Source of the DNA: Cyclobacterium sp.
GTDB lineage: Bacteria; Bacteroidota; Bacteroidia; Cytophagales; Cyclobacteriaceae
Length of the DNA: 51,176 bases
NCBI RefSeq assembly: GCF_014762705.1
Contig: NZ_JABURL010000096.1
Coordinates: 1-51,176, forward strand
Direction: 5' to 3'
Under the pieces are notes generated by a model. It was not told the origin of the DNA, made no database searches, and was given only the letters and a program-made list of their open reading frames with translations. This document shows, piece by piece, positions 13,757 through 30,160 of this stretch; the first letter of the stretch is position 1; every line of letters begins with the position of its first letter. The translations under genes and the position numbers were made by a program.

Positions 13757-14785
13757 ATGATAGAAGTAATAAAGTACCCCAGTGTATTGGAAAGCAGTAA
13801 TCTTGAGCTCAGGAATGTGGCAAAGGATTTGGTCTCGGGACTTAAAATTTACCATGACAATATTGGTTATTTGGTTGGGGACTTGGCATTGTCCGAAGGC
13901 ACATCGCCTCACAGGAACATCAATAGTTCACCTGAAGAAATTGATTACAAAATCTTTTTGAAAGCCGGGCTTCTTTTGGCCTCCCAGAAATTGGGCAGTC
14001 CCATTACTGTGACTACAGGTTTTCCATTTTCCACTTTTCAGGTTTTTAAGGAAAATGCATATCGGTTGTTGGAAAATGAACACATTATAGAATACGATAC
14101 CCAGACCTTCGGTGGAGGCGGCAGAAAAAAAATGGCTGTTGAAGTAGACAGGGTAGCGGTAATACCCGAAGTGGTGGGTTGCAGTATGGCTGTAAGGCAA
14201 ATGTACAGTGATGCACCAAAAAATTTCTTTATGATAAGTCTGGGCTATGGTACTATGGAAGCCATTTTGAGCACAGAAGGAGGCTTGGTACAAAGGTCAA
14301 GTGTGTCCACCTTTGGACTGCGGTATGCCATTAATCTGATTACCAGGGAGCTTCAGAAGGACAATTACCTTGATCTGAAAACCGAACATCAGATCGATCA
14401 ATACTTTAGTGAGGGTACAATTATATTAAACAGAAAACGTTTAGACTTAAGAGAATTGCGCAAGCAGGTGATCACCCAATATTACAATGACGTGATTTCC
14501 CCATCCATTAGAAAAGCTTTCTCCGATAGTGATTTTTCTAAATCCGCAGATCTCTATTTGGCCGGAGGTGGGGCCAATTATGTGGAGTTGGTGAATCTTT
14601 TCAGGGATGAATTTGATGGGTTGTTAAATGTGCATGTTCCAGATTCTCCAGAACAAATGGCTTCAATAGGTTATTGCTACAATAGTTTGGCCATAGGTGG
14701 AGGAGCTAAGGATAAGGCTGTTGGGTTGGACCTGGGAAACAGCTCAACTATCCTTACTACATTCAAACAGGAAAAAGAAGATTAG
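13757..14785 (+). CDS. Actin-like ATPase (ParM/archaeal-actin type), apparently circularly permuted
   Basis: A 342-residue protein with actin-fold motifs in an unusual order. It opens with IKYPSVLES, which matches the segment directly after phosphate-1 in ParM/Ta0583-type proteins (FPSV). GYLVGDLA and VTTGFPFSTF follow as in those proteins. Phosphate-2 is SLGYGT (residues 161-166, with the usual Asp replaced by Ser). The adenosine motif is GGGAN (270-274), followed by PEQMASIGY. The phosphate-1 signature GLDLGNSST lies at residues 323-331, eleven residues from the end. An in-frame stop 24 bases before the ATG excludes a missed N-terminus. A bactofilin gene follows, suggesting a cytoskeletal role. 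Confidence 0.85.
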   Translation: MIEVIKYPSVLESSNLELRNVAKDLVSGLKIYHDNIGYLVGDLALSEGTSPHRNINSSPEEIDYKIFLKAGLLLASQKLGSPITVTTGFPFSTFQVFKENAYRLLENEHIIEYDTQTFGGGGRKKMAVEVDRVAVIPEVVGCSMAVRQMYSDAPKNFFMISLGYGTMEAILSTEGGLVQRSSVSTFGLRYAINLITRELQKDNYLDLKTEHQIDQYFSEGTIILNRKRLDLRELRKQVITQYYNDVISPSIRKAFSDSDFSKSADLYLAGGGANYVELVNLFRDEFDGLLNVHVPDSPEQMASIGYCYNSLAIGGGAKDKAVGLDLGNSSTILTTFKQEKED

Positions 14786-14801
14786 TCATATAAAATCGAA
14801 C

Positions 14802-14894
14802 ATGGCTCAGCCGACACACAAATGGATGAATTCCATCATGCGAGAATCTCCTGAAAGTCGGGAACCTTCAGTAGGTACAAAATATGACCTTTGA
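14802..14894 (+). CDS. Possible 30-residue protein between actin-like and bactofilin genes
   Basis: An ATG frame of 30 codons fills most of the 127-base gap between the two cytoskeletal genes. The product is polar, with Trp8, several Met and a Pro/Glu-rich C-terminal half (RESPESREPSVGTKYDL), and no membrane segment. It starts 16 bases after one stop and ends 18 bases before the next start, as an operon gene would. Similarity to anything known is not apparent, and chance is a real possibility at this length. Confidence 0.35.
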   Translation: MAQPTHKWMNSIMRESPESREPSVGTKYDL

Positions 14895-14912
14895 AAATCA
14901 AAATATAATCAG

Positions 14913-15479: not shown

Positions 15480-15510
15480 AGTAAATTCACAGATTTTCTA
15501 AGGAAAATAA

Positions 15511-15545
15511 AAAATGGCAATCCCAGAAGGGATTGCCATTTTTTT
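15511..15545. terminator. Bidirectional terminator between bactofilin and symporter genes
   Basis: AAAATGGCAATCCC (15511-15524) pairs perfectly with GGGATTGCCATTTT (15529-15542) around AGAA. T-rich sequence follows on the right and A-rich sequence precedes on the left, so it can stop transcription from both convergent genes. Confidence 0.9.
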
Positions 15546-29692: not shown

Positions 29693-30160
29693 ATGTGGAC
29701 CAAAGAACGAAAAATTCAGGATGAGATGGAAATGGCTAGCGCAACTTCAGTTTTTGCACCGGGATTGAGTATCAAAGGTAATGTAGAGGCAAGCAGTGAT
29801 ATCCGGATTGAAGGAGAAATCGCAGGAGATGTCACCACCGGTAGAAAGGTGATTGTTGGTGTTTCCGGCAAAATCACCGGTAATATCAAAGCCTCAGAGG
29901 TCTGTGTGATGGGGGAGGTCTTGGGAGATATTTTTGTACAGGATCTTGCCAGGTTTACCGCCGAAGCCAGGATGAAAGGAAACGTTTATTCAGGAAAAAT
30001 TGAAATCGAATCAGGAGCGGATATGGAAGTGACCCTCTCCAAACCAAAGAAAAGTAGTGCAAACTTTACCCTTCCTTCCACAGAAAATCAGGCTAAACCC
30101 GCAGAAAACAAGGATACAACCAAAAAAACCGGAAAGGAAATGGTCAGAATGGATCATTAA
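29693..30160 (+). CDS. Second bactofilin
   Basis: A 155-residue protein. The bactofilin core (about residues 20-110) has the regular beta-rung pattern (SIKGNVEASSDIRIEGEIAG, VIVGVSGKITGNIKASEVCV, MGEVLGDIFVQ), and a Lys/Thr-rich tail of about 40 residues follows. It is a paralogue of the protein at 14913 but has a shorter, more basic tail. It stands alone in its direction. Its stop codon shares the four bases TTAA with the stop of the convergent PLP enzyme gene at 30157. Confidence 0.92.
   Translation: MWTKERKIQDEMEMASATSVFAPGLSIKGNVEASSDIRIEGEIAGDVTTGRKVIVGVSGKITGNIKASEVCVMGEVLGDIFVQDLARFTAEARMKGNVYSGKIEIESGADMEVTLSKPKKSSANFTLPSTENQAKPAENKDTTKKTGKEMVRMDH

Follow-up and report, generated by a model that had tools for sequence, protein, structure and literature searches.

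The gene at positions 13757..14785 (+ strand) of a 51,176-nucleotide (nt) stretch of Cyclobacterium sp. DNA (RefSeq assembly GCF_014762705.1, contig NZ_JABURL010000096.1; hereafter the window, meaning this whole stretch) encodes an actin-like protein of the ParM/Ta0583 type that is naturally circularly permuted, the phosphate-1 hairpin of the nucleotide-binding cleft being found at the C terminus. To our knowledge, all known actins and their relatives start with phosphate-1. The direct evidence consists of the order of the motifs, its conservation across Bacteroidota, a predicted fold and a cut point mapped to residues 308-320. We consider it probable that the product is a permuted actin filament protein, presumably with slow adenosine triphosphatase activity, which works together with a bactofilin.

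The reading frame starts with ATG and specifies 342 residues plus a stop codon. When the sequence was re-read, both the frame and the residue numbers given in the initial annotation for the four motifs were reproduced, that is, YPSV at 7-10, SLGYGT at 161-166, GGGAN at 270-274, and GLDLGNSST at 323-331. The N-terminal strand (residues 2-8; 13760..13780, +), which runs into YPSV, is the counterpart of the strand that comes after the phosphate-1 hairpin in canonical actins (from their residues ~19-23 onward), as judged by the profile match described below and by superpositions of the model. In canonical actins, phosphate-1 is likewise followed by a PS(V/I/M/L) motif. Next come Glu138 (14168..14170, +) at the connect-1 position, which we take to be the counterpart of the catalytic Gln/Glu in actin and Hsp70; the phosphate-2 loop SLGYGT (14237..14254, +), where Ser161 replaces the usual Asp, and then Glu168; and the adenosine motif GGGAN (14564..14578, +). 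The phosphate-1 hairpin is last (residues ~317-342; 14705..14782, +), as defined by conservation of GxDxGN, the strands of the model and rotation tests. We assign these motifs as the actin phosphate-1, phosphate-2 and adenosine elements on the basis of profile and fold matches, together with the customary motif names. The frame remains open for just eight codons 5' of the ATG, and there is therefore no hidden N-terminal phosphate-1.

Domain profiles give the same picture. The window protein matches Pfam ALP_N (PF17989) with 42.9 bits, against a cut-off of 26.3, and its residues 5-141 correspond to profile positions 19-148 of 148. Because residue 5 aligns to position 19, the first 18 positions of the profile, which represent the phosphate-1 hairpin, are missing at the N terminus. 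The protein has no match in NCBIfam at E up to 1, and none to the MreB family PF06723 at E up to 10; some relatives match PF06723 weakly, below the cut-off, and a separate canonical MreB is encoded in the genome of the window (E 3.8e-126).

Rotation tests and predicted fold

Moving residues 318-342 of the window protein to the front raised its ALP_N score from 42.9 to 51.2 bits, with coverage of positions 1-148 of 148, while the score remained 42.9 when the letters of the hairpin were shuffled. ALP_N scores also rose upon rotation for two relatives, L063 (44.7 to 51.4) and L089 (33.5 to 42.2), and in a third, L019, it was the score of the C-terminal domain that increased (22.4 to 28.3), the unrotated sequences of L019, L063, and L089 being matched ranges (338, 332, and 333 residues) slightly shorter than the rotated full proteins. 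The position of the cut was scanned by profile-profile alignment of the family with five canonical actin-like proteins. Unrotated, the family scored 132.9 (E 2.8e-18); cuts at 308-320 formed a plateau at 148.0-148.3 (E about 1.6e-20), with a single collinear alignment across the whole chain, and the other cuts tried scored lower (76.2 to 145.6). In 30 controls with shuffled hairpin columns, scores averaged 133.3 and did not exceed 137.0, whereas the true order scored 148.2. The best alignment to canonical members is reached only after rotation, at this defined cut. We also ran the rotated profile against 198 Bacteroidota genomes, seeking a relative in canonical order. Strong matches were found in 14 of them, in ten of which the body and the hairpin were hit separately and in permuted order, with the hairpin downstream; three further genomes gave weak partial matches (E 0.002-0.009).

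An AlphaFold2 model computed from a 61-sequence alignment is of high confidence (predicted local distance difference test, pLDDT, 92.3; predicted template modeling score, pTM, 0.91). It displays a two-domain actin fold with the phosphate-1, connect-1, phosphate-2 and adenosine elements that characterize the actin/Hsp70/sugar kinase superfamily, and this fold is nearest to ParM-type proteins. In superpositions on ParM and Ta0583, residues 1-316 cover these proteins from residue ~19-23 to the end, leaving the hairpin over. Ta0583 itself begins with phosphate-1. The two strands of the hairpin (321-326 and 330-336) are modeled with block pLDDT values of 93 and 88, and the linker ahead of them with 96. 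A superposition on Ta0583 or ParM with the hairpin in the phosphate-1 position had been suggested as a check on the permutation. The match of the body to the canonical fold and the confident strands and linker are consistent with this, and the model indicates that the hairpin probably lies in the phosphate-1 place of the cleft.

Comparison with known systems sets the window protein apart. It is 17-19% identical to ParM-type proteins (Dh-cParM1, 8x1i; Clostridium botulinum pCBH ParM, 6izr/6ixw) and 17% identical to the archaeal Ta0583 of Thermoplasma acidophilum (2fsj, 2fsn). Unlike ParM-type proteins, it has its phosphate-1 hairpin at the C terminus, lacks the phosphate-2 Asp, and belongs to a family that has a bactofilin as a neighbor and no match in a plasmid collection. 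In CorM (9rmi), BeeR (8r2n), MamK (5ljv), and Alp7A (5ec0), residue 1 of the model aligns from target residues 59, 59, 29, and 20, respectively (entry numbering); since the alignment begins inside these chains, each starts with something that the model lacks there. BeeR, which comes from Verrucomicrobiota, has an N-terminal extension of its own of 30-50 residues. The window protein is thus actin-derived by fold and profile but, by its motif order and missing phosphate-2 Asp, outside the defined actin-like families.

The view that no actin homologue with this arrangement has been described agrees with a full-text search, covering for the most part neither preprints nor subscription journals, in which no permuted actin was among the literature matches listed. 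A natural rearrangement of motif order with retention of the fold is likewise described for the YlqF/YawG and cpRAS GTPases (PMC2430557), which have a GTPase fold and not an actin fold. The available part of the CIRPIN preprint mentions permuted ribonuclease-H-like domains and does not contain the word actin (PMC12667903). A jumbo-phage review concerns methylases (PMC7824862).

Conservation of the arrangement and of the nucleotide site

Within the same family, 26 of 196 genomes contain a relative of the window protein, with one match in each. A sample of 395 genomes from the phylum gave 24 with relatives, and 31 of 244 genomes from the class of one distant member have them as well. The 61 loci from a named genome collection include Cyclobacterium, Lunatimonas, Roseivirga, Belliella, Mongoliitalea, Cecembia, and Sediminibacterium, as well as Bacteroidales bins, many of them from rumen and other gut samples. 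The window protein is 100% identical to a Cyclobacterium plantarum GBPx2 protein, and the 60 relatives in a 61-row alignment are 40-98% identical to it. In all, 111 loci reduced to 82 distinct proteins, to which 14 further distinct sequences were added, giving 96 from Bacteroidota. L110 and L178, which represent one contig-edge fragment of ~47 residues from the same genome, were excluded from all counts, while L177 (C terminus cut by the contig end) and L174 (N terminus cut) are among the 96 and were excluded where relevant. A genome search with Pfam ALP_N found no match in 60 genomes and is uninformative, because the window's own gene was also missed.

The initial annotation had placed phosphate-1 at the C terminus of the window protein and asked whether all homologues have it there. 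They do: GxDxGN lies near the C terminus in all 82 distinct proteins from the 111 loci and, in the full set, at the C-terminal end of 95/95 proteins in which this end is intact (L177 out). Nor do any relatives carry a phosphate-1 at the other end, since none of the 82 distinct proteins has GxDxG within its first 60 residues, even with the upstream open frame added, and the motif is absent from the N-terminal part of the full open frame in all 95 proteins with an intact N-terminal end (L174 out). A second GxDxG match, seen in 5 of the 82, is sited in the linker just ahead of the C-terminal motif. Of the 95 rows counted, 87 have the P of the PS(V/I/M/L) motif at residues 7-10. Because the arrangement is kept in every distinct homologue with an intact C-terminal end, it is not a product of chance, and the proposal of a natural circular permutant is upheld by conservation, rotation tests and predicted fold alike.

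Some members depart from the common form. In L064, L086, and L165, a long charged or low-complexity stretch is found at the C terminus. Counted from the first Gly of the phosphate-1 motif onward, the C-terminal parts in this set comprise 58, 110, or 139 residues. L165 has an N-terminal extension too, so that its PS motif lies at residue 74. Two copies of the permuted actin gene occur in some genomes of group f36 (L100/L101 and L103/L111/L112), each with its own downstream bactofilin.

The nucleotide site is conserved except at one position. Gly323, Asp325, Gly327, and Asn328 of phosphate-1 are each found in 95/95 proteins, Glu138 and the GGG of the adenosine motif in 95/95 rows that have those residues (one gap each), and Gly163, Gly165, and Glu168 in 96/96. 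The replacement of the phosphate-2 Asp, noted from the start for Ser161 of the window protein, proves to be a family trait, the Asp being absent in 96/96 (Ser in 92, Gly in three, and Asn in one). In actin and Hsp70, this Asp helps to place the metal and water. Since no member has it, ATP is probably hydrolyzed slowly, and the filaments would be stable rather than dynamic. The permuted actin quite probably binds ATP and, a little less surely, polymerizes.

The bactofilin neighborhood

Immediately downstream of the permuted actin gene lies a gene for a 188-residue bactofilin (PF04519; 14913..15479, +; Pfam E 2.8e-21), a probable partner in the same transcription unit. When stop-to-stop frames were scored, the fetched flanks of 68/96 loci proved to contain a bactofilin frame, downstream on the same strand in 67 and upstream in one (L085). 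In 62 of these 67, the frame either overlaps the actin gene (in L030 and L036, counted here as downstream, the bactofilin open frame starts inside it) or starts no more than 300 nt past the actin stop, and in the other five it is 419-1208 nt away. With ATG-only frames, bactofilin is downstream in 53/82 loci, plus one upstream. The profile used was built from 39 of the downstream proteins, which therefore count by construction; Pfam confirmed bactofilin in 8/8 distant neighbors tested and in that of the window. Among 58 representatives at under 90% identity, 40 have the bactofilin, 17 have none, and one was not scorable, and the pattern of presence and absence on the tree involves at least five changes. 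The window's genome has four bactofilin genes. With so few per genome, repeated adjacency is unlikely to arise by chance, an argument made by reasoning and not by a computed statistic. A functional partnership between actin and bactofilin is therefore likely, on the strength of gene neighborhood. No paper on an actin-like/bactofilin pair in Bacteroidota was among the literature matches listed.

The two genes are separated by a 127-nt spacer (14786..14912, +), whereas in four sister Cyclobacterium strains the distance is 4 nt. Five partial, imperfect copies elsewhere in the genome indicate that the spacer contains a short interspersed repeat, which is lacking in the two sister strains compared. 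Between the actin and bactofilin genes, no terminator-like site was detected. A palindromic terminator-like hairpin follows the bactofilin gene (15509..15544), where it was found on the - strand and would also fit a converging transporter gene; this is weak evidence, since one site was found in 2.2 kb against 2.0 expected from shuffles. On the same contig, a second bactofilin gene is found 15 kb downstream (29750-30034). In group f17, a tetratricopeptide-repeat gene, assigned by Pfam in L094 only, lies between the permuted actin and the bactofilin (L094:2551-3681, with a similar gene in L092 and L096) and might specify a third component.

Proposed mechanism, alternatives and significance

In the mechanism that we favor, the chain would begin with the strand that ordinarily comes third in domain Ia and run through the whole fold in the usual order, with the phosphate-1 hairpin made last. 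The hairpin would then fold back in cis via the linker 314-320 (Gly-rich in the window protein) and insert into the domain Ia sheet, completing an ATP site composed of Asp325 and Asn328 from phosphate-1, Glu138, the SLGYGT loop and GGG270-272. The permuted actin would bind ATP and polymerize like other bacterial actins, and slow hydrolysis would make for comparatively stable filaments. The new termini fall between strands two and three, probably in an exposed loop; for this reason, and because three members have long tails there, they may be available as attachment points. Since bactofilin is the likely partner, the pair may form a cell-shape or localization scaffold, a role that we put forward tentatively. 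More speculative still, and doubtful at present, is the idea that docking and release of the hairpin, in cis or by strand donation, switch nucleotide binding and assembly, with the bactofilin polymer capturing or templating the hairpin to give a composite actin-bactofilin cytoskeleton in a phylum-wide family.

Several observations weigh against a permuted, slowly hydrolyzing actin filament protein that works with bactofilin. Loss of the phosphate-2 Asp could mean that there is no hydrolysis at all. No bactofilin is seen in the fetched flanks of 28/96 loci, some of which are short downstream (2 nt in L177, 702 nt in L080, and 724 nt in L071), and these 28 include all 12 Bacteroidales representatives (L063, L065-L073, L076, and L077; most of them bins from the rumen and other gut sites); the partnership is hence not obligate. 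Upon rotation, L019, one of the three relatives tried, drops out of the ALP_N listing, which is unexplained. The MreB-like_C Pfam domain scores 26.4 bits in the window protein, just below its cut-off of 27.8. No usable contacts could be derived from a residue-coupling analysis (94 sequences, effective number 40). Searches of the PDB are the least decisive. The single window protein had no match to PDB sequences, and a profile of the same six proteins listed actin-superfamily chains in 36/50 matches when rotated and in 3/16 when unrotated (E up to 10); in the rotated case, the alignments printed for Hsc70 are gap-free across the join, from GPAVGIDLGT to the following PS. This shift is soft evidence, because an unrotated 18-row profile already matched actin-superfamily chains, weakly, in 10/11 cases. 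No actin-like PDB chain was found at E below 0.001 by sequence or profile, rotated or not; the best actin-superfamily E was 0.026, and a ribosomal protein ranked first in all three profile searches. We have not used PDB E values as evidence of homology.

The most serious alternative, which we nevertheless regard as unlikely, is that the permuted fold has no ATPase activity and serves as a static adaptor for bactofilin, not as a filament-forming enzyme. It would account for the universal replacement of the phosphate-2 Asp and for the frequent bactofilin neighbor. Yet the other nucleotide residues (G323, D325, G327, N328, E138, and GGG) are each kept in 95/95 proteins where present, and since their retention would not otherwise be expected, a protein that does not bind nucleotide is disfavored. 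Hsc70 variants of the D199S type, moreover, reportedly still bind nucleotide. A Ser in the place of the phosphate-2 Asp does exist in a solved Hsc70 structure, that of a variant titled D199S (1qqm). A DNA segregation actin with ParM function, chromosomal or cryptic, could instead have been permuted incidentally and sit next to bactofilin only through a common origin of the region. That the fold is nearest to ParM-type proteins fits this idea, and bactofilins in other bacteria can anchor chromosome-segregation proteins. It is made improbable by the absence of any match among 72,556 plasmid records and of any confirmed case in viral contigs (in a pattern-based scan), and by bactofilin being the downstream neighbor at most of the loci. 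The sole phage protein matched (two records, one phage) is canonical, starting with phosphate-1, and the match is weak (24.6% identity across 54% of the query).

Two further possibilities concern the hairpin itself. It might enter the phosphate-1 position of the neighboring subunit, so that subunits would be linked by swapped hairpins. The hairpin is indeed at a free terminus after a linker, and the permutation would, we reason, allow a swap impossible for canonical actins; the single-chain model, however, is confident for linker and hairpin, as expected for docking in cis, and we consider strand donation very unlikely. Finally, a frameshift, a misassembly or a wrong start might hide an N-terminal phosphate-1, the C-terminal motif being a chance match. 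Nothing beyond the oddity of the arrangement speaks for such an artefact, whose probability we regard as negligible. The same arrangement recurs at every intact C-terminal end, in isolates and metagenome bins alike, and the true rotated score exceeds those of all 30 shuffled controls. A frameshift or wrong start was rejected since the upstream open frames of the 95 proteins with an intact N-terminal end are devoid of GxDxG.

A circular permutant of a ParM/Ta0583-type actin, conserved in this way, means that selection can maintain the actin fold throughout a phylum even when the chain is opened between strands two and three. The family also ties an actin-like protein to bactofilins in Bacteroidota, and it offers a test system for the position of the termini, for the completion of an ATP site during translation, and for the relationship between hairpin docking and polymerization. 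If the docking switch exists, it would be a mode of control absent from canonical actins, in which the ATP site would stay incomplete without the last ~25 residues. Few folds have been studied as much as that of actin and its relatives. More such proteins may be hidden, because the part that has moved escapes structure and alignment searches bound to chain order.
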